This document shows, one piece after another, positions 1 to 15,539 of a stretch of 64,000 bases of DNA (position 1 is its first letter; every line of letters begins with the position of its first letter). A model generated the notes under the pieces. That model did not search any database and was not told where the DNA came from. It was given only the letters and a program-made list of their open reading frames with translations. The position numbers and the translations under genes are program-made. The stretch is taken from NCBI RefSeq assembly GCF_000317085.1, contig NC_019702.1:1518394-1582393 (forward strand), read 5' to 3'. This stretch comes from Synechococcus sp. PCC 7502. Lineage in GTDB: Bacteria > Cyanobacteriota > Cyanobacteriia > Pseudanabaenales > Pseudanabaenaceae.

Positions 1-81
1 GGAGCTATGGCACTTAGTTCTCTTTCGGTAGTCACAAATGCTTTAAGGCTGAGAGGGTTCCATCCTTCTGCAAGTAAATAG
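1..81 (+). CDS. copA: C-terminal end of a copper-type P1B ATPase (partial)
   Basis: An open frame enters from the left edge and ends at TAG 79-81. It encodes 26 residues including AMALSSLSVVTNALRLR. P1B-type copper ATPases end this way: the last membrane helix carries the MALSSVSVVxNALRLR signature after the metal-site helices. Only the tail is visible, so catalytic motifs (CPC, DKTGT) cannot be checked. The cupredoxin gene starts 11 bp later on the same strand, which suggests an operon for copper export. The start lies outside the window. Confidence 0.75.
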   Translation, partial: GAMALSSLSVVTNALRLRGFHPSASK

Positions 82-92
82 GACAAATAATT

Positions 93-584
93 ATGAAAAA
101 ACTAACAAGTATTTTACTCAGTATGGGCTTATCCGTTGGGATCGCTTCTAGTATGTCAGCACAGGAGATGAAACACAATTCCGCTAAATTTCAACCAATT
201 GAACAGCCTATTACTCTGAAAATTGCGATCGCTCTCGGTGGTTTATCTCTAATCGGTGCACAGCTTTGGTGGTTTCTGGGAAGTAAGCCTAAATCTCAAA
301 AGGCAGAAATAAGTGATGGTGTTCAAGAGGTGACGATTACGGTTGATGGTGGTTATGTTCCATCTTTAGTAACGGTTAAGCGGGGTCAGCCTGTACGCTT
401 GCAATTTAATCGCCGTGATCCTAGCAGTTGTTTAGAAAAGGTTCTTTTCCCTGACTTTCATGTTGCTCAGGATTTAACTCTCAATCAAACTACGCCTGTG
501 GAATTTACGCCTGACAGCCTTGGGGTATTTCAGTTTAGTTGTGGGATGGGAATGTTTCACGGGGCGATCGCTGTGGAGGAGTAG
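93..584 (+). CDS. Membrane-anchored cupredoxin-domain protein
   Basis: A 163-residue protein. The N-terminus (1-23) looks like a signal peptide or first helix, and a second hydrophobic stretch lies at about 43-66 (IALGGLSLIGAQLWWFL). Residues 78-163 form a cupredoxin-like beta domain ending in CGMGMFHG, where Cys150, Met152/154 and His156 are plausible copper ligands. Another His lies near 125 in PDFHV. It follows the CopA tail by 11 bp, so a role in periplasmic copper binding or hand-over to or from the ATPase is likely by context. Similar cupredoxin_1 proteins accompany CopA in other bacteria. The exact partner and redox activity are not shown. Confidence 0.75.
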   Translation: MKKLTSILLSMGLSVGIASSMSAQEMKHNSAKFQPIEQPITLKIAIALGGLSLIGAQLWWFLGSKPKSQKAEISDGVQEVTITVDGGYVPSLVTVKRGQPVRLQFNRRDPSSCLEKVLFPDFHVAQDLTLNQTTPVEFTPDSLGVFQFSCGMGMFHGAIAVEE

Positions 585-587
585 AAT

Positions 588-1970
588 TTAGTGGCTATGT
601 AAATGATGAATGTCGGTGTAATGAGCATGACTATGGCGCACTGGAGAATGCTCGTGAGAATGAGTATGCGGCTCAGTTAGCAATGCACCTTCAGGATGAT
701 CGTGTTGATGATGCTCATCGTGAGTATGCTCATGATCGTGCCAGAGATACTCGTGTTGATGTTTGTGAATTTTGGGAGATAGCAATACCTGGACTCCTGC
801 TAGAAGGGTGAATCCAATCAAGCTGCCGTAAAGAAAAGAATTATTCCCCTGACTGCCTAACCACCCTGCAATGGGATAGGAAACAGCCCACCAGAGATGA
901 CTCCATGCAAAATGTGCGCCATAAACTCGTCCTTGAAAGTTAGTCGGAATCTGTTCGGCAATTAGGGTTTGAGTTGGGAGATTTACTAAAACTTGCCCCA
1001 TTCCTGCGATCGCCCAAAGTAGCATTAATGGCACTAAGCCTACATAATTGGCGGGTAGAATTGCTGAAGTAATTAAAACTGCGCCAAATAGAACTACAGC
1101 CGTGCGTTCCCATTTCTTCCCAATCGCCCCTACCGTCACCGCCGCTATGGTTGCCCCAATCCCAAAAGCTGCCATTACCCAGCCGTATTCTAAGCTACTC
1201 AGTTTGAGAGTTCCTTTGATGTAGCCTACGGTATTTACTAAAATTTGCGCCCCAGAGATCGATGCTACGAGTTGCAGGAAAAGAGCATAGCGAATAAAAG
1301 CATTGGCAAATAAACGGGTTGTTCCTTCTTTAACATCACCGATAATTTTGCTTAAAACTCCTCGTTCCAAAGGCTCACTTTGCTTAACTTTAAGTTGATT
1401 TGGAAGTGTAAATATGAGAACTGCGGCGATCGCAAAAGAAATTGCATCTAGGAAAAATATCTGTCTCGATCCAATCCATGCCGAAACACTACCAGCAATG
1501 CCCGGACCTAAGACTCCCAAAAGTTGATAAGTTGCCGCTGAAAGAGCGATCGCACCTGCATATTCAGCTTTACCTATGACTAAGGGAATTGTGGCTTGAT
1601 AGGTTGGGGTAAAGAAGGCATTGAATACATTCAGCCCAAACACCAAAATATAAATTTGCCAAACTGCATTTACAAAAGGCATTGTGCCAATAATCAACAT
1701 CCGCGCAATGTGAGTGATAACTAGGATTAATTTTCGATCTAGGCGATCGGCGATCGCACCTGCTATTGGCGAAAGAATCACAAAAGCCGTTACCCGCAAA
1801 GTTAAAGCTACAGAAAGAACTACGGCACTATCTTTTCCTGCTAATTCAAAAGCAAGTAAAGCCAATCCCAACCAAGTCAGAGCATCGCCAAATAAGCTGA
1901 TAGTTTGAGCAAGATAGAGCCTAGTAAAAACTGGATTTCTTAAACTTTGAAATAAGGTGAAGTAATTCAT
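588..1970 (-). CDS. MFS metal exporter with His-rich C-terminus (NrsD/NreB-like)
   Basis: A 460-residue major facilitator with about twelve hydrophobic segments and the MFS loop pattern GAIADRLDRKLIL near residue 75. The last ~60 residues hold about 22 histidines in HxH and HDH clusters. This architecture matches nickel exporters of the NreB/NrsD group, whose His-rich tail binds metal in the cytoplasm. The cation cannot be decided from sequence. It is the last gene of a minus-strand run after the CDF exporter (18-bp gap), and its stop abuts the cupredoxin stop on the other strand. It probably shares the upstream CopR-type promoter at 3418-3437. Confidence 0.75.
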   Translation of the reverse strand: MNYFTLFQSLRNPVFTRLYLAQTISLFGDALTWLGLALLAFELAGKDSAVVLSVALTLRVTAFVILSPIAGAIADRLDRKLILVITHIARMLIIGTMPFVNAVWQIYILVFGLNVFNAFFTPTYQATIPLVIGKAEYAGAIALSAATYQLLGVLGPGIAGSVSAWIGSRQIFFLDAISFAIAAVLIFTLPNQLKVKQSEPLERGVLSKIIGDVKEGTTRLFANAFIRYALFLQLVASISGAQILVNTVGYIKGTLKLSSLEYGWVMAAFGIGATIAAVTVGAIGKKWERTAVVLFGAVLITSAILPANYVGLVPLMLLWAIAGMGQVLVNLPTQTLIAEQIPTNFQGRVYGAHFAWSHLWWAVSYPIAGWLGSQGNNSFLYGSLIGFTLLAGVQVLLSPKIHKHQHEYLWHDHEHTHDEHHQHDHPEGALLTEPHTHSHEHSPVRHSHAHYTDIHHLHSH

Positions 1971-1988
1971 AAAGAAAGTAGATTTTAA

Positions 1989-2903
1989 TTACACAGCACG
2001 ATCAGAGACAGGGTGATGAAGATGCGCCGAGTCACCTAATTCAATTTGAATGGTGGGATGTACGATATCAAAGCGATCGTGTAATTCATGACGAACTTCT
2101 TCTAAAAATCTATCTCCTGGATGTCCGTCAGGCATAACCAGATTAACTGTGAGACAGATTTCAGTAGTACTCATCGCCCAAATGTGCAAATGATGAACCC
2201 TAGTTACTCCCTGAAGTTGCTCAAAATAGCTAGAAACTACAAGGGGATTGATTGCTTCGGGAACAGCATCCAAAATTAAATTGCCAGATTCTCTAAATAA
2301 CTGCCATGTGCCAGATGCAATCACTGCAATTACAACTAAACTCATCACAGGATCGATCCATTGCCAGCCAGTGAATATGATTACAATTCCAGACAAAACA
2401 ACTCCTATTGATACAAGGGCATCAGCAGCAAGATGAAGAAATGCTCCACGGATATTCAGATCGCCTTTGCGTCCAACGAAGAACATTGCTGCACTGATGG
2501 AATTAATTAAAGTTCCCACCAATGCCACAATAATTACAGTTCCTCCTGCTACAGCCGAAGGTTCGCGTAGCCGCTGAATTGCTTCCCATGCGACACCACC
2601 TGATACGATTAGCAAAAAAGAAGCATTCAAAAGTGCTGCCAAAATTGACGATCGTTTCAGCCCAAAAGTACGGCGTGGTGTCGGTAAGCGGCGCACAAGC
2701 AGACTTGCACCCCAAGCCAACAGTAGACCAAGAACATCACTTAAATTATGACCAGCATCAGCAATTAATGCTAAAGAATTAGCGAGAATCCCATAGCTCA
2801 CTTCAACTATGACAAATCCAGTATTAAGGGCAATACTAACGGCAAAAGCCCGACTGAAGTTTTTTGGGGTATGCGAGCGATCGTGACTATGGGAATGTGT
2901 CAT
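1989..2903 (-). CDS. Cation diffusion facilitator (CzcD/ZitB type)
   Basis: A 304-residue CDF transporter. The start MTHSHSHDRSH gives a cytosolic His-rich tail. TM2 carries the HxxxD metal site in DAGHNLSDV (near residues 49-57), and TM5 carries HLAADALVS, the second half of the tetrahedral Zn site. The C-terminal cytosolic domain ends with HLHHP. CDF proteins exchange Zn2+, Co2+ or Cd2+ for protons across the inner membrane. It lies 51 bp after the small periplasmic gene and 18 bp before the MFS exporter, suggesting one minus-strand unit for divalent metal export. Confidence 0.85.
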   Translation of the reverse strand: MTHSHSHDRSHTPKNFSRAFAVSIALNTGFVIVEVSYGILANSLALIADAGHNLSDVLGLLLAWGASLLVRRLPTPRRTFGLKRSSILAALLNASFLLIVSGGVAWEAIQRLREPSAVAGGTVIIVALVGTLINSISAAMFFVGRKGDLNIRGAFLHLAADALVSIGVVLSGIVIIFTGWQWIDPVMSLVVIAVIASGTWQLFRESGNLILDAVPEAINPLVVSSYFEQLQGVTRVHHLHIWAMSTTEICLTVNLVMPDGHPGDRFLEEVRHELHDRFDIVHPTIQIELGDSAHLHHPVSDRAV

Positions 2904-2954
2904 TTATTTTTATTCAAAGCTTGGATATAAAGATGTAAATGCTTTAGCTAAACA

Positions 2955-3374
2955 TTATCGCTTAAAGCTAAATCTGCCATTCACCTTCTTGCCCCCAATG
3001 TCACAGAGTATCGCCACCTTAAAATCTCCTTTAGCTTTAGTTTCCAGCAAGGCAGTGTAATGCTTTTCCTTAGCATCGTACTTGAGGGCTAGAGTTTGCT
3101 TTTTGCCATCGGGCATAGTCACTTCAGCTTTCACATTTGCATTGCCTACAGATGAATGGTTATCACCTTTTTGCAGATAGAAGTCGAGATGTGCGCCCTT
3201 ATCAGTTTTTTCTGGCACAAATTCCAAATGATAGCCTTGGGTTTCTACTACTTGTCCACCATTTTTGCTTTCTGAATTGGCGATCGCCGCAAACTGCCCA
3301 AAAGAAGTGTTAGAGATAAATGGGGAGCCTGAGACTGCCAGTATTGCAGTAAAGACAAGAATTTGATTACGCAT
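2955..3374 (-). CDS. Small secreted protein of the metal-efflux cluster, unknown function
   Basis: A 139-residue protein with a probable signal peptide (residues 1 to about 26-32). The mature part is mostly beta, and residues 45-139 alternate polar strands (HLDFYLQKGDNHSS, VKAEVTMPDGKKQTL) in a way that recalls YtkA/FixH-type small beta domains. I do not recognise a named family. One late Cys occurs in LCDIGGKK. A perfect CopR-type direct repeat sits 43 bp upstream of its ATG, so copper-responsive expression is likely. By context it may be a periplasmic metal-binding or efflux-accessory protein. Confidence 0.6.
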   Translation of the reverse strand: MRNQILVFTAILAVSGSPFISNTSFGQFAAIANSESKNGGQVVETQGYHLEFVPEKTDKGAHLDFYLQKGDNHSSVGNANVKAEVTMPDGKKQTLALKYDAKEKHYTALLETKAKGDFKVAILCDIGGKKVNGRFSFKR

Positions 3375-3417
3375 ATTTTTTAGTATGGATTAACAGCAAT
3401 TAGAGAATGACACACAA

Positions 3418-3437
3418 TTATGAAATCAGGATGAAAT
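3418..3437 (-). promoter_or_regulatory. CopR-type direct-repeat operator, copy 1
   Basis: The plus strand reads TTATGAAATCAGGATGAAAT. On the minus strand this is TTCAT-N6-TTCAT, with 11 bp from one half-site to the next, as expected for an OmpR/PhoB-class regulator. It lies 43 bp upstream of the start of the small secreted protein and overlaps the last codons of the RND pump gene. It is identical to the sites at 6610-6629 and 9708-9727. Confidence 0.75.
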
Positions 3438-6400
3438 ATATTTTTCTACCCCTAAGAAATTATCTTCAGTAATCCCTTCTAACTTTTTAGGAACAATATA
3501 TTTACCAAACATAGAATACAAAGCTGGCAGCACCAGCAAGGTTAGGGCTGTGGAAGTAAATAATCCTCCTAAAACCACAACTGCTAAGGGTTGGAGAATT
3601 TCTTTACCTGCGCCAGTGCCAATTACTAAAGGAACCATACCCAAGGCTGAAGAGAGAGCAGTCATGAGGATGGCAACGAGGCGTTCGAGTGAACCTTCCA
3701 TTAACACTTCGGATAGTGGGATGCCCTTGGCTAATTTGGTGTTGTAATTATCCACTAACAGCAATCCGTTCCGAGTAGCAACGCCGAAAAGCGTAATGAA
3801 TCCTACCATTGAGGCGACTGAGATAATACCTCCACCTAAAGCCACCGAGATCACACCACCCACAAGGGCTAGAGGTAGATTGACCATAATCATCAAAGTC
3901 GCAGGAATAGATTTGACCGCAAAGTAGATCAAAATTGTGATCACAGCGAAGGCGATCGCCCCTGCAATTAGTAAGGTTTCAGTTGCTCGTTCTTGGGATT
4001 CAAACTGTCCGCCGTATTGAATGTAATAACCCGATGGTAGTTGAACTTGAGTTTTAATGCGATCGCGGATGTCGGTAATCACTGAGCCTAAATCTCTACC
4101 ATTCACATTCGCCGATACTACAATCAGCCGTGAGACATTTTCTCGATTGATCGTGTTAGGTCCTGTGCCGAAGGAAACTTTTGCCACCTGAGAAAGTGGG
4201 ACTTTTTTGCCTTCAGGTACATCTACCAAGAGATTGCTGATGGTTTCTAGGCTATTGCGAGAACTCTCATTCAGCCATACTACCAAGTCAAATACCTGCT
4301 GTTGTTCCAAAACCTGAGAGACAATATTGCCATTGAGGGCAGTTTCGATGGTTTCCGCTAAATCTCCGACTCGCAATCCATACCGAGCCGCCGCCAAGCG
4401 ATCAAAGCGAATCTGTAGTTGTTTGATTGGTACCTGTGGCTCTACTTGCAGATCGACTACGCCATTGATCCCACTCATGGCAGATTGTACCTGTTGCCCC
4501 AGATTACGCAATTGATCTAAATCGGAACCAAAAATCTTGACAGCGATCGCACTTCGCACACCAGAGAGAACTTCATCTAGTCGGTGAGAAATAAATCCAC
4601 CAATGTTTACAGCTACACCGGGGATTTTGGCAAATTCTTTTCGGAGAATTTCGATACTTTCTTCCCGTTTCTTTACGCCATCTTCGCTCAATTCTACATC
4701 TAGTTCCGCAAAGTTTACGCCTCCCACGTCGCTATCTCCCGGCGCACGTCCTGATCGCAGTTGCAAGGCGTTGAAATGTTTGTCGGTTTTGAGGTTTTGT
4801 TGAATGGCAAAGCTTGCTTGATTAGTAGTTTCCAGCGAAACCCCTGGATAGAGAACTGTAGAAATCACTAGCGATCGCTCTTGAAATTCAGGTAAAAATA
4901 CTCGTCCTAATGATGGCAGAATAATTCCAGAGGCAATTAAAGTGGCGATCGCTACACCTAAGATAATACTAGGGCGGCGAATGGCAAAGGTTAAAGCAGG
5001 ACGATAGATTTGTTGAGATTTATGGGCGAGCCAAGTTTCATCGGGCGGTAAGGGACGATTGACCAGTAGCAAAGCACAGAGGGCGGGAGTCAGAGTTAAA
5101 GCTACCAAAGTAGAAGCAACAATGGAGAGTAAATATGCCACACCCATCGGTGTAAAAATTCGACCTTCCACCCCAGACAGGGCAAAGATAGGAGCGAATA
5201 CCACAGCAATAATTACCGTAGAAAAGAGGACGCTGACTCGGACTTCCACAGAGCCATTAAAAACTACTTCCAAAGGCGGTACGGGTGTTCCTGCTAGTTG
5301 ATTCTCCCGAAGACGACGATAGACATTCTCCATATCCACGATCGCATCATCTACTACTGAGCCAATTGCTACAGCTAGTCCACCCAAAGTCATGGTGTTA
5401 ATGCCTTGCCCCGTCCATGATAGAACCATCATCCCCATTAAAAGTGAGATTGGTAATGCACTCAAACTGATGATCACCGTGCGCCAGTTCATCAAAAACA
5501 TCACCAGTACTACCGATACGATAATCATGCCATCTCGTAATGCTTCTTCTACATTCTTGAGTGAGGCTTCGATAAATTCGGCTTGACGGAAGGTATTTTC
5601 AACTTTGATATCGCTTGGTAATCCTTGCTTAATTTCAGCGATCGCCATTTCTACGCCTTTGGTCACTGTGGGAGTATCAGAGATCGGTTGCTTGTTCACG
5701 ATTACCACAACTGCCCTTTTCCCATTAACAATGCCATCTCCTCGTTTTAGTTCTGCGCCAATTTTGACATCAGCAACTTGCCCTAATAGAATTGGCACGC
5801 CTTTGTGGGATTTAATTACCGATTGCTGTAATTGCTCTGCGGATTCAATTCTACCGATCCCACGCATTAGTAATTCTCGATCTGGACTGATTAAAAACCC
5901 ACCTGCGGCATTCACATTCGCTTTTCTGGCTGCTTCGGTCACTTCTGCCAAGGTAACATCGTATTGCTGCAATTTGGCTGGATCGACTAGCACCTGATAC
6001 TGACGAATATCGCCTCCAAAAATTACGACTTGAGTTACCCCCGGCACTGCTAAAAGTCGGTTTTTCACCTGCCAATCCACAATTCGCCGTACTTCCATTA
6101 GGTCGGTCTTGCCGCCTTCTTCTATGGTAAAAGCATATTTAGCGATTGCTCCAATCGGAGAACTAACGGGCGAAATTTGAGGTATGCCCACGCCTTTGGG
6201 TAATTGGCTTTGAGCCTGTTGCAATCGTTCTGTTACCAGTTGTCTCGCTCGATAAATATCTGTATCCCAAGTGAAAATCACTTTTACCACCGAAATGCCT
6301 ACTGCCGAAGCCGATCGCACTTTTTCTACGCCCGGTGTGCCGTTAATTGCACTCTCAATTGGTCGGGTAACTAAGGATTCTACTTCTTCAGGAGCAAGAC

Positions 6401-6563
6401 CTGCCGCTTCGGTTTGAATCTCTACCTGTGGTGGGGCAAAGTTGGGAAATACATCTAAGGGCATCTGAGTAAGTACCCGAAATCCCCAGAGACTGATTAA
6501 AATTGAGGCAATTACGATTAACCAGCGCTGGGCGATCGACCATTTGACAACGGCATTGAGCAT
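3426..6563 (-). CDS. Heavy-metal efflux RND transporter (CusA/CzcA family)
   Basis: A 1045-residue inner-membrane RND pump of the HME type. TM1 follows the start (WLIVIASILISLWGF), two large periplasmic loops occupy about 40-340 and 560-870, and TM4 carries AIGSVVDDAIVDMEN near residue 405, where acidic residues relay protons. Such pumps form a tripartite complex with an adaptor and an outer-membrane channel. The adaptor gene is 7439-9010, and no outer-membrane factor is visible here. Copper/silver versus divalent specificity is not certain from the TM4 motif, but the CopM neighbour and operators favour copper. It has its own operator 46 bp upstream. Confidence 0.9.
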   Translation of the reverse strand: MLNAVVKWSIAQRWLIVIASILISLWGFRVLTQMPLDVFPNFAPPQVEIQTEAAGLAPEEVESLVTRPIESAINGTPGVEKVRSASAVGISVVKVIFTWDTDIYRARQLVTERLQQAQSQLPKGVGIPQISPVSSPIGAIAKYAFTIEEGGKTDLMEVRRIVDWQVKNRLLAVPGVTQVVIFGGDIRQYQVLVDPAKLQQYDVTLAEVTEAARKANVNAAGGFLISPDRELLMRGIGRIESAEQLQQSVIKSHKGVPILLGQVADVKIGAELKRGDGIVNGKRAVVVIVNKQPISDTPTVTKGVEMAIAEIKQGLPSDIKVENTFRQAEFIEASLKNVEEALRDGMIIVSVVLVMFLMNWRTVIISLSALPISLLMGMMVLSWTGQGINTMTLGGLAVAIGSVVDDAIVDMENVYRRLRENQLAGTPVPPLEVVFNGSVEVRVSVLFSTVIIAVVFAPIFALSGVEGRIFTPMGVAYLLSIVASTLVALTLTPALCALLLVNRPLPPDETWLAHKSQQIYRPALTFAIRRPSIILGVAIATLIASGIILPSLGRVFLPEFQERSLVISTVLYPGVSLETTNQASFAIQQNLKTDKHFNALQLRSGRAPGDSDVGGVNFAELDVELSEDGVKKREESIEILRKEFAKIPGVAVNIGGFISHRLDEVLSGVRSAIAVKIFGSDLDQLRNLGQQVQSAMSGINGVVDLQVEPQVPIKQLQIRFDRLAAARYGLRVGDLAETIETALNGNIVSQVLEQQQVFDLVVWLNESSRNSLETISNLLVDVPEGKKVPLSQVAKVSFGTGPNTINRENVSRLIVVSANVNGRDLGSVITDIRDRIKTQVQLPSGYYIQYGGQFESQERATETLLIAGAIAFAVITILIYFAVKSIPATLMIMVNLPLALVGGVISVALGGGIISVASMVGFITLFGVATRNGLLLVDNYNTKLAKGIPLSEVLMEGSLERLVAILMTALSSALGMVPLVIGTGAGKEILQPLAVVVLGGLFTSTALTLLVLPALYSMFGKYIVPKKLEGITEDNFLGVEKYISS

Positions 6564-6609
6564 AATTTCAGGTAATTTTAGGCTTTATATTGCCTACTCT
6601 GCCATGAGA

Positions 6610-6629
6610 TTATGAAATCAGGATGAAAT
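6610..6629 (-). promoter_or_regulatory. CopR-type direct-repeat operator, copy 2
   Basis: Identical 20-bp copy of the TTCAT-N6-TTCAT site (minus strand), 46 bp upstream of the RND pump start. On the minus strand it is followed by an AT-rich CAATATAAAG that could serve as a -10 region. It gives the pump gene its own regulated promoter downstream of the toxin-antitoxin pair. Confidence 0.75.
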
Positions 6630-6723
6630 TTAGCCCCTTGGTGTAAGCTGTGACTATCTAGACATACAAAAAATTCCCCACTTCTCAGGTTCTCTAGGAT
6701 ATTTTTTACACGCCTACTAGGAA

Positions 6724-7140
6724 TTATCGCCAATTATCTAGGAGTAGGCTGTAGCCAAAATTTTGAATGCGTTGATAGTGAGAAGTATTTCCAGTAACTA
6801 GAGTAATTTTATTATTGATAGCGATCGCCCCAATGATACAGTCAGGATAACCAATCCTTTGTCCAGTACGCTCCAAATCCGCATAAATTCTACCTGCTAA
6901 GTCTGCATCGGCTAAAGTCATTGGTAATACTTCTTCAGTAATTAAAGTGCTTAAAAACTGTTTGATCCGTGCTTCATTTTGCCGTCTATGCCAACCTTCG
7001 ACAATCTCCATTACCGAAATAACAGAAGTTGTATAAAACCCAAACTGACTTCTATAGGCGATCGCTTTTGTCCGAATATTTGGATCGATGCCCTTAAGAA
7101 TTTCTGAAATAATATCGGTATCTAGTAATGACTTACTCAA
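6724..7140 (-). CDS. PIN-domain toxin, VapC type
   Basis: A 138-residue PIN-domain ribonuclease. Acidic residues occur where VapC enzymes need them: Asp7/Asp9 in LLDTDIISEILK, Glu in VISVMEIVEG (near 46) and Asp in RIGYPDCIIGAIA (near 101). VapC toxins cleave tRNA or rRNA when their antitoxin is degraded. The last motif reads TGNTSHY, so the fourth acidic position is less clear. It follows its likely antitoxin gene by 12 bp. The pair is placed between the adaptor and pump genes of the metal-efflux system, with no obvious functional link to them. Confidence 0.8.
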   Translation of the reverse strand: MSKSLLDTDIISEILKGIDPNIRTKAIAYRSQFGFYTTSVISVMEIVEGWHRRQNEARIKQFLSTLITEEVLPMTLADADLAGRIYADLERTGQRIGYPDCIIGAIAINNKITLVTGNTSHYQRIQNFGYSLLLDNWR

Positions 7141-7152
7141 TTTAAAGACACC

Positions 7153-7386
7153 TTAAATAAAAGATTTACGATTCTCAAAAGCCTCATTAGATATATCCGT
7201 CATTATTTCACTTTCTTCTGCAAAAATTCCCAACCAAGGGTTTTCAGGAGACAACGTACCTTGGCTTAAAGAATTTTCAGGAATTTCTTGATCTAGCATC
7301 TGGCGTAGAGTGATTTTTTCCTCAAGACTCAGGGAGTGAATTGATTCAGCTAATGCTTCTGAAGGAATTGTTACTGTAATTGGCAT
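7153..7386 (-). CDS. Antitoxin-like protein paired with the PIN toxin
   Basis: A 77-residue acidic protein (MPITVTIPSEALAESIHSL) immediately upstream of the PIN toxin on the same strand. Size, gene order and a predicted amphipathic middle helix suit a VapB-type antitoxin, but I do not recognise a classical AbrB, RHH or Phd fold. The assignment rests mainly on pairing. Binding to the toxin through the C-terminal half and autoregulation would be expected. Confidence 0.6.
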   Translation of the reverse strand: MPITVTIPSEALAESIHSLSLEEKITLRQMLDQEIPENSLSQGTLSPENPWLGIFAEESEIMTDISNEAFENRKSFI

Positions 7387-7438
7387 AAAGACCTCATTGC
7401 TAACTGGCTAATTAAGAGTATAACCTGCGTTAATAGTT

Positions 7439-9010
7439 CTAACGATCAATGCGGCGGGACGCATCCCTGCTGAGTGGGGAATCGCTTGTAAGTTCAGGCT
7501 CACGCAGGATCACCATTTTTGTACCAGACCTTCTGCCTAGCCAAAAGGCACCAGCCACAATTCCACCACCCGCGATCGCTCCTGTTAAAAGCATTGTCCA
7601 CACGGGAGGAGAAAAACTAGATTCTTTTACTTCATTTGGTTTAGGTTCTGATTCGGTGGGTTTGCTGCCACCTCTTAAAGACTGGGCATAGAGTTGGGTA
7701 GCTCTTTGGGTGGCGATCGCATCTCCTTCAAACAAGCCATTATCCACTTCGACAAAATCCCCAGAGGTTCTGCCTAAAACCACTTCTACGGGTTGAAAAG
7801 CATTGCCATTTTGGACGAATACCAGATTTCTGCCATTTGCTTCCACTACTGCTGCCGCAGGAATTGCCACAACTGATTCAGATTTTTCGGTAAGGACTTC
7901 TAACTCGGCAAACATTCCTACGGTGAGAGTGCGATCTGGGTTTTCAATCTCGGCTTGAACGGGAATAATTCGAGTTTCACCATTCACAACTGCGCCGATG
8001 GTTCTGACTTTACCTGTGAATTTACGTCCTGCTGCTGTTACTCTCACCCGTTGACCGATTTTGATTTTGTTCAAGTCTTTTTCATAGATATTGGCGGTTG
8101 CTAGGAGGCGATCGCTATTCACAATGGTCATTATGGGTTTACCAGCATCTTCACCCGATTCTGCCAGAGTAGCTTTTAGTTCGGAAACTGTACCTGTAAT
8201 TGGTGATGTAATGGCGATCCTGCCATCGGCATTGGCATTTGCCCCCAATTGATTTAGTCGAGCATTATAGGTAGAATCGCTGAGTTGAATCCGTTCTTTT
8301 GCTACTTGGAGTGCTGATTTTGCATTTTTTACTTCGGCTTCAGCTTTTAAAACTTCTAATTTGCTTTCAGCTTTGGTAAGCGCAGCTCTGGCGGTGGATA
8401 ACTTCGACTCTGATTCCATCACTTGACGGCTGGGAATTGCTCCACTCGCTAAGAGTTCTTTATCGCGATCGTAACGCTCTCGATCTACTTTTAGTTCGAT
8501 CTGTGCTTGTCTAATTTCAGCATTAGCTATTTGCTGGCTGCGATCAAGGTTTTGTAGGGCTAGGGTTAAGTTTGCCTGTGCTTCTCGCAAATTCCCATCG
8601 GCTTCGGCTCTCTTCTCAAAAGAGGCTACTCTTAATTCGGCAATCTCTGGACTGGATAGAATTGCTATGGGTTGTCCCGCTTGAACGCGATCGCCCAGTT
8701 TGACTAGCAGTTGAGTGATTTGCCCTTTAGTTGGAGTGGTGATTTCGACTTTGCGATCGGGCATTGCCTCAATTTGTCCGTTAGTCTTGATGCCAAGTTC
8801 CAATTGCCGACTGGCGACAGATTCAACTTTGATCCCAATTTGTTTGGCGGTATTTGTATCTACTTGGATTGCATCTTTAGGCTGAGTATCGCCACTTTTA
8901 AATTCATCACCATGACCACCGTGGGCAAAGACTTTAGTAGGTGCAGAAAAAATTACAAAGCTAGTGATAATTACTGATACAAATCTATGGGCATTTTTGG
9001 AGCTAGGCAT
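7439..9010 (-). CDS. Periplasmic adaptor of the HME-RND pump (CusB/CzcB-like) with C-terminal membrane helix
   Basis: A 523-residue HlyD-fold adaptor. It begins with a signal peptide and a GHGGHGDE-like metal-binding stretch (AHGGHGDE near residue 30). A biotinyl-lipoyl half follows at about 85-125 (GQITQLLVKLGDRVQAGQPIA), then a long coiled coil at about 130-265, the second lipoyl half (ITSPITGTVSEL, near 268) and a beta-barrel region to about 440. Near 472-495 there is an extra hydrophobic helix (MLLTGAIAGGGIVAGAFWL), unusual for CusB-like adaptors, which are normally free or N-terminally anchored. It follows the DUF305 gene by 33 bp and shares its promoter. Confidence 0.85.
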   Translation of the reverse strand: MPSSKNAHRFVSVIITSFVIFSAPTKVFAHGGHGDEFKSGDTQPKDAIQVDTNTAKQIGIKVESVASRQLELGIKTNGQIEAMPDRKVEITTPTKGQITQLLVKLGDRVQAGQPIAILSSPEIAELRVASFEKRAEADGNLREAQANLTLALQNLDRSQQIANAEIRQAQIELKVDRERYDRDKELLASGAIPSRQVMESESKLSTARAALTKAESKLEVLKAEAEVKNAKSALQVAKERIQLSDSTYNARLNQLGANANADGRIAITSPITGTVSELKATLAESGEDAGKPIMTIVNSDRLLATANIYEKDLNKIKIGQRVRVTAAGRKFTGKVRTIGAVVNGETRIIPVQAEIENPDRTLTVGMFAELEVLTEKSESVVAIPAAAVVEANGRNLVFVQNGNAFQPVEVVLGRTSGDFVEVDNGLFEGDAIATQRATQLYAQSLRGGSKPTESEPKPNEVKESSFSPPVWTMLLTGAIAGGGIVAGAFWLGRRSGTKMVILREPELTSDSPLSRDASRRIDR

Positions 9011-9043
9011 AAGGTTATTCTCTCAAATTAAGGTTTACATTAA

Positions 9044-9664
9044 CTATTTTCCATACCAAGCTTTACGCCACTGCTGCATTTGCGTAATTTCTGCTTTCTG
9101 AGAAGAGAGAATGTCTTGGGCGAGTTTTTTGACTTCGGTACGCTTGGTTTTACCTTGTGCCTCTGTTGCCATCATTAATGCCGCTTCATGATGGGGAATC
9201 ATCGCATTAAGAAAGCGCAGATCGAAGTTGGCATCAGAGGCTCCTAAATCTTCACTCATCATCATTCCTTTCTTCTGGGAGTCTGTCATTGTCATCATGT
9301 GACCCATTTCTGAATTCCATGCCATAGGAGTGCTGCCCACATTTGGATACCAAGATTTACGCCATTTTTGCATTTGAGCGATTTCTACTTCCTGTGCTTT
9401 GATGATTTCGGCTGCGAGTTTCTTGATTTCGGGACGCTTAGATTTTTGTAATGCTTCTTTTGCCATTGCGATCGCCCCTTGGTGGTGAGGCATCATACCG
9501 TCAATAAAGCGAAGATCGAGGTTGGCATCGGCTTTACCCAGTTCCATCGACATTCCGCTCATGTTGTGGTTCATTTTGCCCATCTGTGCGGCGGACTGCC
9601 ATGTCCCAATGCCGATCGCTGCGGTTAAGGCGATTATTGCTAACGTGTGAGGTTTTAGTTTCAT
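9044..9664 (-). CDS. copM: Tandem DUF305 copper-binding protein (CopM-like)
   Basis: A 206-residue protein with an N-terminal signal or anchor (LAIIALTAAIGIGTW), then a Met/His-rich stretch (QMGKMNHNMSGMSM). Two DUF305 four-helix repeats follow. The first has MMPHHQGAIAMA near residues 57-68 and the second MIPHHEAALMMA near 153. His-His and Met residues are likely copper ligands. CopM of Synechocystis is a DUF305 protein co-regulated with CopRS that lowers copper load, and this gene fits that role. A CopR-type operator lies 43 bp upstream and the pump adaptor follows downstream, so it is probably the first gene of the operon. No CopRS genes are in the window. Confidence 0.8.
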   Translation of the reverse strand: MKLKPHTLAIIALTAAIGIGTWQSAAQMGKMNHNMSGMSMELGKADANLDLRFIDGMMPHHQGAIAMAKEALQKSKRPEIKKLAAEIIKAQEVEIAQMQKWRKSWYPNVGSTPMAWNSEMGHMMTMTDSQKKGMMMSEDLGASDANFDLRFLNAMIPHHEAALMMATEAQGKTKRTEVKKLAQDILSSQKAEITQMQQWRKAWYGK

Positions 9665-9707
9665 GAGTTTGAGTTTGTAATGCTTGCAGATTAAGCTTTA
9701 CACAAGA

Positions 9708-9727
9708 TTATGAAATCAGGATGAAAT
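9708..9727 (-). promoter_or_regulatory. CopR-type direct-repeat operator, copy 3
   Basis: Third identical 20-bp site, 43 bp upstream of the CopM-like start on the minus strand. With the other two it defines a regulon of at least three transcription units. It also marks the left edge of the metal island, because the next gene leftward-facing from 10452 is a phage-type repressor. Confidence 0.75.
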
Positions 9728-9789
9728 TTGTTTTACTTTGGGCGATCGCTTCTGTCACTAATCCCGGTTCGGACGGATCGCCTCCCAAA

Positions 9790-10452
9790 TTATCCCGTAA
9801 CCTTGTGGACAGTCCAGACTACTTTACCAACTACTCGAAAATCGGTGGACTCATCCGCAAAGTTCACAATATATGGCTGATAGGCGGGATTATCACTTGT
9901 CACCCTAAGCTGACCACCGGGCTGCCGTTGCAATCGTTTTACTTGTAATAATCCATCCGAATGCAACACATAAATTCCATCACCAATCTGTTCCACATTA
10001 GAAGAGACCAGTAGCACATCGCCATTATTTAGAGTCGGCATCATGGAATCGCCTCGCACAAAGATTAAGCTGGCATCTTCAGGTCGGACTTTAAGCTGAT
10101 TTTCTAGCCAATCTTTATCTACCCTTACCATCTCTGCTTCAGGTTCTCCATCCACAAAAGCACCCATTCCTGCCGAAGCTGCGACATCAAACTGGGGAAT
10201 TTTTACATACCGTTCTGCTTCAGTGCGAGAACCTCTGCCCGTAATCAGCCAAGTGTAATCAATATGGTGACGTTCGCAAACTCTGGCAATCACTTCAGCA
10301 TCGGGTAAGCGATCGCCATTTTCATAACGAATGAGCGTACTTTTAGCAATATTTAGACTATTGGCAAAAGCCTGTTGGGTCATCTTTCCCCGTACTTCAA
10401 GAATGCGATCGCCTATGCCAAAACAAAGATCGGCAGTTGTAGTGGTATCCAT
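9790..10452 (-). CDS. CI/LexA-type repressor (XRE HTH + S24 peptidase)
   Basis: A 220-residue protein. An XRE-type helix-turn-helix covers about 10-65 (MTQQAFANSLNIAKSTLIRYENG). A linker holds a likely Ala-Gly self-cleavage site in VAASAGMGAF (near 93). The C-terminal S24 domain has the catalytic Ser in GDSMMPTL and Lys in LLQVKRL. This is the architecture of phage CI repressors that are inactivated by RecA-stimulated autocleavage. It is divergent from the replication gene and presumably silences it, so the adjacent element could be induced by DNA damage. Its stop lies about 60 bp from the CopR site. Confidence 0.85.
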   Translation of the reverse strand: MDTTTTADLCFGIGDRILEVRGKMTQQAFANSLNIAKSTLIRYENGDRLPDAEVIARVCERHHIDYTWLITGRGSRTEAERYVKIPQFDVAASAGMGAFVDGEPEAEMVRVDKDWLENQLKVRPEDASLIFVRGDSMMPTLNNGDVLLVSSNVEQIGDGIYVLHSDGLLQVKRLQRQPGGQLRVTSDNPAYQPYIVNFADESTDFRVVGKVVWTVHKVTG

Positions 10453-10670
10453 TTTGCAAATAAAAATAAATTGTTAAAAAGTTCAAAAGTAGTCCAAACG
10501 GACAACATTATTTTCTTAATCCATGATACCATTATTTCAGTCGAAGTTTTCAACAACTAAATAATTCAAATTACTGATGATGATTCTACATATTCTCTCG
10601 AATGGCTATGTTCGAGGTCTGGTTTTACTATGTCTACAAACTACTAACTATGCAAGAAAAAAGAGGCAAG
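10453..10670. promoter_or_regulatory. Divergent control region between repressor and replication gene
   Basis: This AT-rich region separates two divergent genes. It holds the perfect inverted repeat GTCC-AAAC-GGAC at 10492-10503 and two similar opposed half-sites, TTGTTAAAAA (10471-10480) and TTTTCAACAA (10547-10556). These are candidate operators for the CI-type repressor. A frame open from ATG 10602 reaches into this region, but the start at 10671 is favoured for the replication gene. Confidence 0.4.
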
Positions 10671-13370
10671 ATGAATAGTTTTCGGACTTCTGCGAGAAAT
10701 CCCTGCCCTGTCTGTGGCAGAACTAAGGATGGTGATTGTGCGATTGATGAAGTTGAGTCGGGGCTTAAGGTGCGGTGCCATACTCATCTGAGGGATGCTG
10801 GGATTGAAGATTTTGTCTATCGAGGTCAGACTGAATGTGGGATGTGGGGTTTGTATTATTCGGTACCTCAAGATAGTTCAGATAGACCTAAAGCGATTCG
10901 AGTTAAAGGTACTCAGGAGTATTTCTATCCTAATATCAAGGGCGATCCTCTGGCTAAGGTGGTAAGAACTGATGATGGTCAAGGGATTAAGAAGTTTGCC
11001 CAGTGGCATCGGATTCATGGCAAGGGAATAGTCTGGTCTTTGGGTTTTCCTGAGAAGTTGCAGAAACAGGTGCATCTTTATCGGATTGGAGATGAGATTA
11101 ATAAAGGGGCGATCGCTAGTAATGAGCAGATTCTAATTGTTGAGGGTGAAGGGAAGGTCGATCTGCTTTTATCTATGGGTATCGCTGCTACTTGTGTGAT
11201 CGGTGGTGCTGGAAAATGGCGTAGATATGGCTATCCCAACTATCTTGAAGATTTACAGGGTGCTGCTGTAGTTCTGGTGCCTGACCGAGATACTAAGGGC
11301 TTGGAACACATGAAGGATGTTGAGAAAGATTTTCCTAATTCTCAATGGCTCTATCCCTATCCTGATTCACCGCTTTGGAATAGATTACCAGAGAAGGGAG
11401 GTTTAGATATTGCCGATTGGATTGAAGATTTTAAGTTAACCAAAGTGCAAATCATGGATGCTGTGGGCAAAGTTCCCTTACCTCCAAAAGTGGCTAATCC
11501 ACAAGAACTTAATGAGCAAGAAGATAATGACATTCTCAAAAGTGAAACTCAGACTTTACTCGGTTGGGTATCTGAATCTATTGCGATCGACTCGCTGATT
11601 CCTAGTCTGGCTATTCCTTTTACTCAAGTTGCTAAGGCTTTTAATATTCCCGAAGTTGTCTTAGTGTCTGCCCTTCTGCCAATTGCAGCATCCCTTTTAA
11701 GAGTCGGCACTAAGATCGAGATTGCTGCGGCTACAGAATTTTATCCACCTCCCATTATCTGGACTGGCATTATTGCTGAGTCTGGGGCTACAAAGTCCCC
11801 TATCTTCAAAATACTTACTAAACCTCTTAAGGTGCTACAAGCTGAAGCTGAGGAAGATTACAAGGCTGTTCTGCAAGAGTACGAAAAGCAATTGGCTAAG
11901 TTTAATGCTAACCCTAACACCGACCAAGAAAAGCCAATTAAGCCCAATCCTCGCAACTATTTCTTTCAAGATTTCACGACTGAAGGGCTGGCTCAAAGCT
12001 TAGAGGGTACAACTCATGGTACGGCGATCGCTATTGATGAACTGGCAGAGATGTTGGCTGGCTTTAATCAATATAAGGGTGGCAAAGGTAACGACAGACA
12101 AAAATGGTTGACGATTTATGATTCTGGGGGGATGAAGGTTGACCGCAGTAGTGGGAAGAGAATGTTTCTAACCCATACACCCGTGAGTATTTTAGGCACG
12201 ATTCAGCCTGACGTTCTAAAGCAACAGATGGGAGATTTATATACGGTTGATGGTTTGTGGCAGAGATTTCTATGGGTTAATTTGCCTGTGACTCGTCTAC
12301 CTGCTCCCAATGATGGCGTGACTTGCAATATTAGTGAGTTATTACTGGGGATATATCGGCGTTTGGAGAATTTACCTGCGATCGCCTACTCCATTTCCAA
12401 AGAAGCAAGAAAGCTCTGGTCACGCTGGCATGACTGGTGTGAAACCCAGAAATTAGCTGAAGCACATCCAAGTATTAGGACACTTTACCCAAAGGCTCGT
12501 GAACGGGCAGCGAGAATAGCATTGGTATTCCATATTGTGGAGGCTGTGGCTAAGGGGCAGATGCCGAGCCATGAGATTTCTGCTGATACTTTAAATGCTG
12601 CTATTCAGTTTGTCCAGTGGACGATCAAACAGACACGGTTGCTCTACGCCGATTTAGGGATTACTGAACATCAAGACTCTGCCAAAATTACTCGTTTTGT
12701 CGAGCGGTTTAGGTATGCAGATTGGATTACAGCTAAACAAGTTAGGTCTTGGATTCCTGCCCGACAAAAGCCAACTTGTGATGAGTGCCGAGAGTTTATG
12801 CAACAGATTGTGGCTATGGGTTATGCCATAAACAACGGGCAAACGGGTAGAAAATATAATATTAAAATACTCTCTAGTAGTCCCTTTAGTCACTTTGACC
12901 CTCAGACCCAGACAGAGTATACACCTGAGCGTAGTCACTTTGGTAGTCCACAGGTAGTCACTTTAGTCACCTTTAGCCAAGATTTACCCCTAAATTCTGA
13001 GAAAGCCAATTCAAATTGCCAAGTTGGTTGTAATTTATCGTTAGAATCTGAGTCTTCTAATTTACATCTAAACTCTGCTGTCAAAAGTGACTACGGTGAC
13101 TACGCAGTGACTACAAAGGTGACTACGTTTAAACCCATTCAGGGAGAGGATTTGAACCCCATAGTGACTAAAGTGACTACCCCTATAAATATAAGTGTTG
13201 GGGATAGAGTGCGCTATCGGGGCAAAGGTGAGAATGGGCTATTTACTCTGAAGGGCTTGAAGACTGATGAGTTAACGGTTGTGGCGATCGCTGAAGACAT
13301 GGTTGTGGTGTCTAGTCCACGTTGGCTGACTACCCAGAATATTCCTGCTAAAGATTTAGAGAAAATTTAG
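10671..13370 (+). CDS. Replication protein: zinc finger, TOPRIM and DUF3987 helicase-like domains
   Basis: About 899 residues from ATG 10671, chosen because AAGAGG lies 4-9 bases upstream; the frame is open from ATG 10602. The N-terminus has a zinc-finger-like CPVCG...C...C (residues 10-45). A TOPRIM-type segment ILIVEGEGKVDLLLSMG and VPDRDTKG lies at about 155-215. A DUF3987 module starts near 365 with the P-loop-like GIIAESGATKSP, then IDELAEMLAGF and GKRMFLTHTPVS. Such fused primase/helicase proteins start replication of phage satellites and plasmids. The last ~150 residues are low-complexity (VTTKVTTF, VTKVTTP) because their DNA carries the iteron arrays at 12878-13179. Confidence 0.8.
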   Translation: MNSFRTSARNPCPVCGRTKDGDCAIDEVESGLKVRCHTHLRDAGIEDFVYRGQTECGMWGLYYSVPQDSSDRPKAIRVKGTQEYFYPNIKGDPLAKVVRTDDGQGIKKFAQWHRIHGKGIVWSLGFPEKLQKQVHLYRIGDEINKGAIASNEQILIVEGEGKVDLLLSMGIAATCVIGGAGKWRRYGYPNYLEDLQGAAVVLVPDRDTKGLEHMKDVEKDFPNSQWLYPYPDSPLWNRLPEKGGLDIADWIEDFKLTKVQIMDAVGKVPLPPKVANPQELNEQEDNDILKSETQTLLGWVSESIAIDSLIPSLAIPFTQVAKAFNIPEVVLVSALLPIAASLLRVGTKIEIAAATEFYPPPIIWTGIIAESGATKSPIFKILTKPLKVLQAEAEEDYKAVLQEYEKQLAKFNANPNTDQEKPIKPNPRNYFFQDFTTEGLAQSLEGTTHGTAIAIDELAEMLAGFNQYKGGKGNDRQKWLTIYDSGGMKVDRSSGKRMFLTHTPVSILGTIQPDVLKQQMGDLYTVDGLWQRFLWVNLPVTRLPAPNDGVTCNISELLLGIYRRLENLPAIAYSISKEARKLWSRWHDWCETQKLAEAHPSIRTLYPKARERAARIALVFHIVEAVAKGQMPSHEISADTLNAAIQFVQWTIKQTRLLYADLGITEHQDSAKITRFVERFRYADWITAKQVRSWIPARQKPTCDECREFMQQIVAMGYAINNGQTGRKYNIKILSSSPFSHFDPQTQTEYTPERSHFGSPQVVTLVTFSQDLPLNSEKANSNCQVGCNLSLESESSNLHLNSAVKSDYGDYAVTTKVTTFKPIQGEDLNPIVTKVTTPINISVGDRVRYRGKGENGLFTLKGLKTDELTVVAIAEDMVVVSSPRWLTTQNIPAKDLEKI
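12878..13179. repeat. Mirror-symmetric iteron array, candidate replication origin
   Basis: Twelve 8-mers. The left arm (plus-strand TAGTCACY or a near match) starts at 12878*, 12887, 12932, 12944*, 12955 and 12964. The right arm (reverse complement RGTGACTA) starts at 13086, 13095, 13106, 13118, 13163 and 13172. Asterisks mark the two imperfect copies (TAGTCCCT, TAGTCCAC). Spacings are 9-45-12-11-9 and 9-11-12-45-9, an exact mirror. The 114-bp centre (12972-13085) is AT-rich. The 37-bp spacers inside the arms are alike in length but not in sequence. Replication initiators of satellites bind such iterons. The array lies in frame within the coding region of the likely initiator. Confidence 0.75.
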
Positions 13371-13377
13371 ACGCTAT

Positions 13378-14127
13378 ATGAAACATCTCGACCTGTTTTC
13401 GGGCATTGGTGGCTTTACTGTGGCTGCGCGATCGCTCGGTATTCAAACAATCCAGTTCGTAGAAATTCACGATTACTGCTGCCATGTCCTTACCAAAAAC
13501 TTTCCAAATATTCCAATCCACCGAGATATTCATACCTTCTATGCAAAACCCAATCAATTCGACCTCATCACTGGCGGATCTCCCTGTCAAGACCTTAGCC
13601 TCGCTGGAACAAGAACTGGAATTACAGGAGAGCGATCGTCCCTCTGGTTTGAAATGCTCCCAGTCATCAAAGAATGTAGACCCAAATATGTTGTCTGGGA
13701 AAATGTCAAAGGTGCAATTTACGCAGGCGGACTTGCCGAAGTCTTACGAGGACTCAGTGAACTTAGCTATAGCTTTGATGTGGAAATCATATCGGCTGCG
13801 GAAGTTGGTGCGCCGCATTTGCGGGAGAGGGTTTTCGTGGTTGCCTACGCCTATGAGCTATTCGGGAAAACGTCATGCTGGTCAAACCAAGTTAGATCGG
13901 AAATTAAGGCTGTTACCCACCCCGACAGCTTCTCAGGGCGGGGACTTTCCGAAAAGGGTAAAGGCTTATCTCCCCACTGGTCAAGTGTTGAATCCCCAGT
14001 TTGTGGAGTGGCTTATGGGCTTCCCCACCGATTGGACAGACTTGCGGTGTTAGGTAATTCGGTTGTGCCTACGGTGGCGGCGATCGCCCTTAAACGAGTT
14101 TTATTTTTGGAGGAATATGGCAGTTAA
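13378..14127 (+). CDS. C5 DNA cytosine methyltransferase, phage type
   Basis: A 249-residue enzyme that transfers methyl from S-adenosylmethionine to C5 of cytosine. Motif I DLFSGIGGF is at residues 4-12. Motif IV with the catalytic Cys is GGSPCQDLSLAG near 64-75, motif VI WENVKG near 106, motif VIII HLRERVFVVA near 148, and motif X GNSVVPTVAAIALKRV near 222. It is short, because the target-recognition region between VIII and X is only about 60 residues. No restriction gene is next to it, so it is probably protective or regulatory for the element. It starts 7 bp after the replication gene. Its 3' part overlaps a second meaningful frame. Confidence 0.88.
   Translation: MKHLDLFSGIGGFTVAARSLGIQTIQFVEIHDYCCHVLTKNFPNIPIHRDIHTFYAKPNQFDLITGGSPCQDLSLAGTRTGITGERSSLWFEMLPVIKECRPKYVVWENVKGAIYAGGLAEVLRGLSELSYSFDVEIISAAEVGAPHLRERVFVVAYAYELFGKTSCWSNQVRSEIKAVTHPDSFSGRGLSEKGKGLSPHWSSVESPVCGVAYGLPHRLDRLAVLGNSVVPTVAAIALKRVLFLEEYGS
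13778..14053 (+). CDS. Out-of-frame phage-type peptide overlapping the methyltransferase 3' end
   Basis: In frame +2 an open frame runs from 13484 to TAG at 14051-14053. Only the part from about 13830 looks biological: SWLPTPMSYSGKRHAGQ, LLPTPTASQGGDF and LNPQFVEWLMGFPTDWTDL. LPTPTA and LNPxxVEWLMGFPxGWTDL strings are familiar from phage proteins linked to methyltransferases. The same bases in frame +1 give the methyltransferase motif GVAYGLPHRLDRLAVLGN, so both frames look selected. Start codons are possible at 13778 and 13853, or the frame could be reached by frameshifting from the methyltransferase. The start given is provisional and no clear ribosome site is seen. Confidence 0.5.
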   Translation: MWKSYRLRKLVRRICGRGFSWLPTPMSYSGKRHAGQTKLDRKLRLLPTPTASQGGDFPKRVKAYLPTGQVLNPQFVEWLMGFPTDWTDLRC

Positions 14128-14482
14128 AATTACTATCGAAGTGGATGGTGCCGATCCTTACCTTGGCGATCGGCTACAAGCAATATTGCAAAGTATATTT
14201 GAAGCCAGTGGCAGCGATGAGGATAGAAGCAACAGTGCCGATAAACACATTGCCGCTAAAGCATTGGGCATAACCGTCACTAAGCTCAGAGATTTACGAC
14301 TGAGTGGGGAATTGCATGAAGGAATACATTACTCCCGTATTTCGCCCCAAACTATTCGTTATAACTTGCCTATGCTCAAGGATTGGTGGGTAAATCGCAA
14401 CGATCCTGCTGCTCATCAAAGAGCAATCGACCAACATTTACGCAGTTTACCGTCTAACCAGAAATCTAAAAGTGGTAGATAA
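14117..14482 (+). CDS. Small DNA-binding / excisionase-like protein
   Basis: About 121 residues from ATG 14117, chosen over an upstream in-frame ATG because GGAGGA lies 6-9 bases before it. The start overlaps the methyltransferase stop region. The N-terminus is MAVKITIEVDGADPYLGDRL. Residues 45-100 (AAKALGITVTKLRDLRLSGEL, then a short winged segment) resemble the winged helix of excisionase or MerR-like proteins. In a small integrated element it could act as an excision or transcription factor. I cannot name the family. It is the last gene before tRNA-Pro. Confidence 0.6.
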   Translation: MAVKITIEVDGADPYLGDRLQAILQSIFEASGSDEDRSNSADKHIAAKALGITVTKLRDLRLSGELHEGIHYSRISPQTIRYNLPMLKDWWVNRNDPAAHQRAIDQHLRSLPSNQKSKSGR

Positions 14483-14519
14483 TTGGTAGACGATTAAATT
14501 GCGATCCTTGAAACCCTAT

Positions 14520-14592
14520 CGGAATGTTGGGATTTGAACCCAAGACCCCCACTACCCCAAAGTGGTGCGCTACCAAGCTGCGCTACATCCCG
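14520..14592 (-). tRNA. tRNA-Pro (GGG anticodon)
   Basis: 73 nt on the minus strand. The acceptor CGGGATG pairs with CATTCCG with one G-U. The anticodon stem CCACT/AGTGG encloses TTGGGGT, giving anticodon GGG, and the T arm contains GGTTCAAATCC. CCA is not encoded. The 3' end faces the phage-like element at 9790-14482, as expected for integration into a tRNA 3' end, but I find no direct repeat of the tRNA tail at the left side. Confidence 0.92.
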
Positions 14593-14662: not shown

Positions 14663-15529
14663 CCTAAGTTGCTACCCATAGATTAACGCTAAGAGCAAGG
14701 ACAAAGAGCATAGCTTTAAGCTCAAATCCCTTAGCCGTGACAGCATGAATAGATTTAGGTAAAAGTTGGGATATTAAACTGCCAGTGGTTTCAATAACTT
14801 TGCGCTTATGGTGTTGAAGAAACTGAACATAACCAGCAAGAGGTCGAGTTGAGCTGCTTTTTCGCATAGCTGAGAGCTGGATATTTTCGGCTTCAAGCAA
14901 CAAATCCTCAACCTCATAATCGTTGTAAGCTCTATCTGCATAGACCACAGAGCCTTCAGGTAAATCAAATGGAAATACTCTCAAGCCCTTAACATCAGCA
15001 AATGAACCATTAGTTAGAAAAAATTCCACAGGCTCTCCTGACTCCGTCACCATCAGATGAATTTTAATACCATAAAAGTATCTTCTCTTGCTGGCTTGAT
15101 AGCCTCGATACTCTTGTTTGCCATCATAGATTTTTGACCTTGGAATGCGGATATTGGCACAGACAGGTATGGGAAAACTATCAATGCTGTAAACCCATTC
15201 CGTGTTTAGTTGTTTCCATGTTTGCCCCAACGCTTCAAACAATATCAACAGCATTTGCTCAACTCGATATAGTCTGCGGTTGATCTGATAAATATTTTCT
15301 TTCCCTCTCGTAATTTCTACAAAAATACATAGTGGCAACTATAGCGGTGGTCATTACTTCGCCATCACTCATTTCTTGTTGTCGATCACCACGATGATTC
15401 ATTGCTCTTAGAATGTCATCGCATAAGCAATAAATCGCTATAATTTCATCATTCATTTTTCTTGCTGCTACTTGCATCTTTTCCTTTGTAGCAGATTTCT
15501 TTCCCTCAGCTATTAGGTAGCAACTTGGG
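14663..15529 (-). mobile_element. IS982-family insertion sequence, decayed
   Basis: Bounded by inverted ends CCTAAGTTGCTACC (14663-14676) and GGTAGCAACTTGGG (15516-15529), which match with one difference. It is 867 bp long, somewhat short for IS982 elements of about 1 kb. The transposase inside carries an internal deletion with frame change, so the element is not autonomous. Confidence 0.8.
14664..15456 (-). pseudogene. IS982 transposase, frameshifted by an internal deletion
   Basis: The N-terminal frame starts at 15456 (MNDEIIAIYCLCDDIL) and reads MSDGEVMTTAIVATMYF. The frame then changes near 15290-15335, and the rest reads NRRLYRVEQMLLILFEALGQ, VYSIDSFPIPVC, YRGYQASKRRYFYG and VYADRAYNDYE. 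Compared with the usual family order, a stretch of roughly a dozen residues between the two parts is missing, which shifts the frame. The DDE acid in SIDSF and that in YADRAY are present. The stop codon lies inside the terminal repeat. Confidence 0.8.
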
Positions 15530-15539
15530 TTATTAAAAA

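Follow-up and report, generated by a model that had tools for sequence, protein, structure and literature searches.

A mirrored iteron array within a DUF3987 initiator gene as the probable replication origin of an integrative element in Synechococcus sp. PCC 7502

The DNA analyzed here, referred to as the window, is a stretch of 64,000 nucleotides from Synechococcus sp. PCC 7502 in which the 3' part of a DUF3987 replication initiator gene carries twelve short iterons, arranged as two inverted arms with mirrored spacing. This array very probably marks where replication of its island begins. We hold with good confidence that it would serve as a bidirectional origin of the PICI type for this 31.6-kb element, recognized by the element's own initiator and at the same time read through as coding sequence. 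An earlier note on this DNA had proposed an origin embedded in the gene for its own initiator, and the arrays of homologues, the architecture of PICI origins, and the context of the element lend support to that proposal, in which the replicative function is predicted from sequence.

The array (12878-13179) is composed of twelve TAGTCACY-type sites, six per arm. Those of the left arm (12878..12971, forward strand) start at 12878, 12887, 12932, 12944, 12955, and 12964, giving a spacing of 9-45-12-11-9, and those of the right arm (13086..13179, reverse strand) start at 13086, 13095, 13106, 13118, 13163, and 13172, giving the mirror image, 9-11-12-45-9. Ten of the twelve sites match TAGTCACY exactly, while the site at 12878 (TAGTCCCT) has one mismatch and the site at 12944 (TAGTCCAC) has two. 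Sites and spacings agree to the base with the earlier note, and so does the count of ten exact copies and two deviating by one or two bases. The array is present once in the whole genome. Between the arms lies a 114-bp centre (12972..13085), a putative melting region, which the earlier note had described as AT-rich. Its length is as described and, at 66.7% AT, it is the 114-bp stretch of the initiator gene with the highest AT content, but the excess is only moderate and is not general in relatives: an AT-rich centre was rejected as a general rule, the AT content being 67% in the window and 40-69% across 13 related arrays.

Neither dinucleotide nor synonymous shuffling yields a comparable array. 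Across the window, 15 exact words were observed against a mean of 2.4 in shuffled sequence, and 15 or more occurred in 0/100 shuffles. Synonymous codon reshuffling of the initiator gene produced a mean of 0.9 words and a maximum of 4 in 1000 trials, versus 10 observed, and a mirrored set was found in 0/150 such shuffles. When the spacings of the window array were permuted with arm orientation kept, five mirrored pairs were recovered in 1/300 trials. With the right arm reverse-complemented, the two arms are identical at 41/48 positions within sites and at 21/46 positions elsewhere, indicating that the array is not a recent inverted duplication and bearing out what had been suggested earlier.

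The initiator gene (10602..13370, forward strand) encodes a protein of 922 aa whose sole Pfam match is DUF3987 (PF13148, E=4.9e-52, aa 368-683), and its PHROG matches are to phage helicase and primase families. These matches and an alignment of homologues divide the protein into a primase-like N-terminal part, the helicase-like DUF3987 region, a putative winged helix at ~aa 690-750, the linker encoded by the array, and a small C-terminal beta domain; the limits of the putative winged helix and of the beta domain are estimated from the alignment and a structure model. This model is of low confidence (mean pLDDT 41) and gives weak support for possible disorder of the segment at ~aa 740-865. The array spans codons 760-860 of 922. 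In the alignment the helicase and putative winged helix are conserved, and there are zero invariant columns across the array segment.

As the array lies within an open reading frame, its repeats could be ascribed to chance arising from a repetitive peptide linker, and in-frame spacings are indeed over-represented, with 141/212 same-strand neighbour spacings within ORFs divisible by 3. Against this purely coding explanation, the iteron copies of each arm are read in just two frames, those in which the word's internal stop codon stays out of frame; the resulting peptides differ (SH, VVT, SDY, VTT), and sites occur on both strands. Arrays also persist outside ORFs, and there only 9/28 spacings are multiples of 3, the bias being lost (Fisher p=7e-4). 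In Nodosilinea-type elements the array straddles the initiator stop codon, and in a 6987-bp Microcystis plasmid (p1) it lies ~440-705 bp downstream of the stop, wholly outside the gene. Since the linker encoded by the array is not conserved and arrays elsewhere straddle or follow the stop, the array is conserved as DNA, and we reject the purely coding explanation as having next to no chance of being correct. The reading frame does bias the spacing toward multiples of 3 and in this way shapes the array, without accounting for it. The earlier note had held that the signal would be coincidental or purely coding if orthologues kept the protein sequence and lost the spacing; the opposite was found, with homologues losing the protein sequence of the array segment but not the spacing. 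The N-terminal module of the initiators is also swapped, being Prim-Pol/PriCT-2 in loci L104 and L115 and of other types elsewhere (L105 being among those compared with the window and L114), while DUF3987, the winged helix, and the array remain linked.

The search for arrays in other cyanobacterial DUF3987 genes, suggested earlier as a check, drew on 386 and 390 cyanobacterial genomes and a plasmid collection (67 records), from which 85 genes in 54 clusters at 60% identity were analyzed. The scan looked from -1300 to +1100 around the stop codon for the 8-mer with the strongest clustering and was counted as positive at a score of at least 6. By this measure 37/54 initiator clusters are positive, contradicting the possibility that homologues lack the repeats; the threshold is reached by 2/1350 dinucleotide shuffles and by 29/299 control windows taken from these loci. 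A stricter mirror statistic, which requires opposite-strand copies of one word to share one exact centre, exceeds zero at 23/42 loci of the first set, in 1/4200 shuffles, and in 19/205 control windows. Because the control windows are real sequence with repeats of other kinds, a comparison with shuffles only would make the evidence look too strong. No array was detected by the scan in 17/54 clusters, including three that are non-cyanobacterial, some that are truncated, and L107, and these absences may reflect truncation, decay, other origins, or the limits of the scan. L107 shares a 60% cluster with L108, whose array is complete, but itself stops early and lacks one, a possible case of decay or loss. 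The E. coli gene yfjI, the DUF3987 gene of CP4-57, has no array.

Hosts of a DUF3987 initiator with an array are cyanobacterial plasmids and chromosomal islands, and complete plasmids of ~7 kb with the gene include Microcystis p1 and O. nigro-viridis pOSC7112.05. The window protein had no match in genome-contig and viral-contig collections, and no relative in the searched genomes exceeds ~43% identity over the helicase part. The PCC 7502 genome encodes one initiator paralogue, with 38% identity.

A recurrent spacing plan with inverted arms is seen in many of these loci, with successive distances of 8-10, 42-48, 11-13, and 9-12 bp and a phasing of ~11 bp. In words, a pair of sites 8-10 bp apart is followed by a gap of 42-48 (or 54-57) bp, by three to four sites 9-13 bp apart, and then by the mirror image, with the gap-adjacent site often inverted. 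The word itself varies by locus and includes TAGTCAC, CAGTCAA, AGGTGCAT, CTGACAAA, TGTAGACA, CGGTAGAC, CCCTCCAC, AGCCAACA, and others. The paralogue in the same genome uses another word in six exactly mirrored pairs, spaced 9-45-11-12-9 and 9-12-11-45-9 (+9+45-11+12+9+, 34 bp, mirror); L044 has six exact pairs (9-33-12-12-12), L115 has seven exact pairs, and in the Planktothrix plasmid locus L060 (10-11-12-42-9) five pairs are exact and a sixth is off by at most 1 bp. The pairs lie on the outside of the arms in the window, the paralogue, L028, L044, L106, and L108, and on the inside in L055, L060, L062, L066, and Nodosilinea-type elements. Within-array permutation of spacings recovered the symmetry in 0-2/300 trials for nine arrays; in many other arrays symmetry alone is not significant by this measure. 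When same-strand distances from 30 arrays are pooled, the strongest period is near 11 bp, as expected for sites sharing one face of the helix. The strict twelve-site template of the window misfits other loci and was rejected as a general model, the rule being common while site number and order vary. A different pattern was observed in the DUF3987 gene of the Allocoleopsis plasmid pMIC7113.02 (L057), where sites of alternating orientation follow a strict 13/74-bp alternation between ~1340 and 800 bp before the stop.

The closest parallel to this plan is found in the PICI origins. In the E. coli PICI EcCICFT073, a pri-rep-ori segment replicates a plasmid and deletion of ori impairs replication, and the organization of PICI origins was stated to occur in "no other known bacterial replicon" (PMC6092414). 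Like the window array, the origins of EcCICFT073 and the SaPIs have two inverted iteron sets flanking a centre on the 3' side of a primase-helicase initiator gene (PMC6092414). In EcCICFT073 (NC_004431) we located TGTCTACC-type sites after pri-rep at +15, +24, +72 (inverted), +92, +103, and +112, an array of 9-48-20-11-9 directly 3' of the gene with five mirrored pairs about one exact centre. This grid, ~9, 46-48, 20, 11, and 9 bp, follows the same mirrored plan as the window and paralogue arrays; with the first site set to 0, the sites of one arm fall at 0-9-57-77-88-97 in EcCICFT073, at 0-9-54-66-77-86 in the window, and at 0-9-54-65-77-86 in the paralogue. Diverged E. coli relatives have a changed word (CTCTACCC) and mostly keep the grid. 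Unlike the PICIs, the window initiator has a DUF3987 helicase rather than the D5/DUF5906 type (that of EcCICFT073 is D5_N/DUF5906/Pox_D5), the window array lies within coding sequence while those of relatives straddle the stop or sit downstream, and DUF3987 arrays occur also on autonomous plasmids. A separate observation concerns the words: the E. coli PICI word GGTAGACA is the core of the Nodosilinea-type DUF3987 word CGGTAGACA (L147, ~4011-4236, and L114, L116, L119, and L141), a match that may be due to chance or to shared winged-helix recognition.

The similarity to PICIs extends to the element as a whole, which like them has integrase, repressor, initiator, and ori modules. It is inserted in a tRNA-Pro(GGG) gene (14519..14592, reverse strand) between 43-bp exact att repeats, with attR (14518..14560) overlapping the 3' end of the tRNA gene and attL outside the window at -17049..-17007 in window-relative coordinates, followed by a tyrosine integrase (-16904..-15804). 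The part within the window (1..14517) holds metal-efflux cargo and the replication module, and the gene content of the whole element comprises metal-efflux genes, a Gp157-like gene, an SNase-like gene, the CI-like repressor, the initiator, and a DNA methyltransferase. The CI/LexA-like repressor (9790..10452, reverse strand; HTH and S24 peptidase) is divergent from the initiator, and the intergenic region between them contains a perfect inverted repeat, GTCC-AAAC-GGAC (10492..10503), a candidate operator. Immediately 3' of the initiator is a C5-cytosine DNA methyltransferase gene (13378..14127, forward strand). A small ORF of 139 aa is at 14063..14482 (forward strand), and relatives of it lie between the repressor or integrase and the initiator in many related elements. 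The gene order of many chromosomal homologues is tRNA, integrase, CI-like repressor, small ORF, and initiator with array. A gene at -14780..-14196 within the element appears by eye to be phage-type lysozyme- or endolysin-like, has no Pfam match, and may bear on a phage-satellite lifestyle; no packaging gene was recognized among the genes scanned. Outside the element, a third exact copy of the att repeat delimits a second element of ~6.9 kb, which has an integrase of its own at -18290..-17133 and lies in tandem at the same tRNA-Pro (genome ~1494490-1501345; window -23.9 kb to -17.0 kb), and a transposase cluster (IS200-like, IS4/5-like) lies just to the right of the tRNA at 14664-17195.

The element thus has the site-specific integration of a PICI, with its own integrase and att repeats, and a divergent master repressor adjoining the replication module, but it is neither small, as a PICI is at about one third of a helper phage, nor free of large non-phage cargo, being 31.6 kb with metal-efflux genes. 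We do not claim it as a PICI, its size and cargo being atypical. Related elements of 5-10 kb exist, and three complete small ones were delimited, of 5.3 kb (tRNA-Trp), 9.5 kb (tRNA-Thr), and 10.3 kb (tRNA-Val).

There are three further rival explanations. Inverted short sites are typical of operators and a CI-like repressor adjoins, so the array might be bound by a regulator of the initiator gene or of the downstream methyltransferase. However, the initiator gene starts 2.3 kb upstream of it, twelve sites across 300 bp are excessive for such a role, the repressor-initiator intergenic region has zero TAGTCACY sites, and the array is present in most homologues without an adjoining methyltransferase; we regard an operator as very improbable. 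Classical plasmid iterons also act in handcuffing and incompatibility, and the array could likewise be where the initiator or a Par protein binds to govern copy number, incompatibility, or partition, with replication starting elsewhere. Some of the plasmids do carry par genes, but the array tracks the initiator rather than par, including in small chromosomal elements with no recognized par gene, and its grid matches a supported PICI ori, making this explanation unlikely. The element may instead be fixed in the chromosome as a decayed remnant, its array an origin by descent that is now disused. The cargo, the nearby IS elements, the single integrated copy, and the tandem second element would be consistent with this, while the initiator ORF, integrase, repressor, att repeats, and ten perfect iterons are all intact; we give this possibility a small but real chance.

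Other known systems share features with the proposed origin. The search model for the PICMI satellites of Vibrio (PMC10803314) accepts DUF3987 as a replication primase alongside int and an AlpA-like gene, and the 5.3-kb cyanobacterial element L109 has nearly the same content. Unlike PICMIs, which integrate at fis, the elements here are integrated in tRNA genes, and any link of theirs to phages is hypothetical; by the terms searched, the paper describes no origin. The lambdoid phage ori inside gene O likewise places initiator-binding iterons within the initiator gene (PMC7466680), but lambda ori has four iterons beside an AT tract and the window has twelve inverted, mirrored sites and an unrelated initiator, which sets it apart from the lambda type. 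The CyRepA1 and CyRepA2 replicons (pSYSA, pCC5.2; PMC9978351, PMC10079941) also have cyanobacterial multi-domain primase/helicase-like plasmid initiators; these combine DUF3854 and DEXDc without DUF3987, and iterons are not described in the two papers. In the window initiator PF13148 alone was found. DUF3987 ATPases were predicted to be replication helicases of mobile elements and winged helices to recognize origins (PMC5862659), in passages that name no origin sequence for DUF3987 proteins. The literature searched contained no measurements of binding or replication for DUF3987 elements.

Combining these observations, we propose that the element's own DUF3987 initiator, with its primase-like N-terminus and putative C-terminal winged helix, would bind the iterons. 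Each inverted arm would form a helical grid of ~11 bp (pair, 45-bp gap, and quartet), and this phasing suggests one initiator assembly on each arm. The two assemblies would face opposite ways around the centre, melt the DNA, and start bidirectional replication, probably upon lifting of the CI-type repressor and excision of the element. The origin would lie within the initiator gene's 3' portion and be translated as a disordered linker.

More broadly, the chances seem even that a single origin class, defined by a mirrored pair-gap-quartet grid with ~11-bp phasing, serves both DUF3987 and D5/DUF5906 initiators across at least two phyla, whether they are carried by a phage satellite, an integrative island, or an autonomous plasmid, with the word drifting while the geometry is fixed and with the cyanobacterial origin overprinted on the coding sequence of its initiator. 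If so, a common winged-helix/hexamer assembly geometry would dictate origin design, and the spacing rule would represent a geometric constraint testable by a structure of the initiator on one arm. A PICI-like organization is now seen on cyanobacterial plasmids and tRNA islands with a different initiator family, and here DNA function and reading frame clearly shape each other, as in-frame spacings dominate only inside the ORF. The quantitative spacing rule may allow the origins of many DUF3987 elements to be recognized from their sequence, and the arrays with their initiators are candidate replicons for cyanobacterial vectors.
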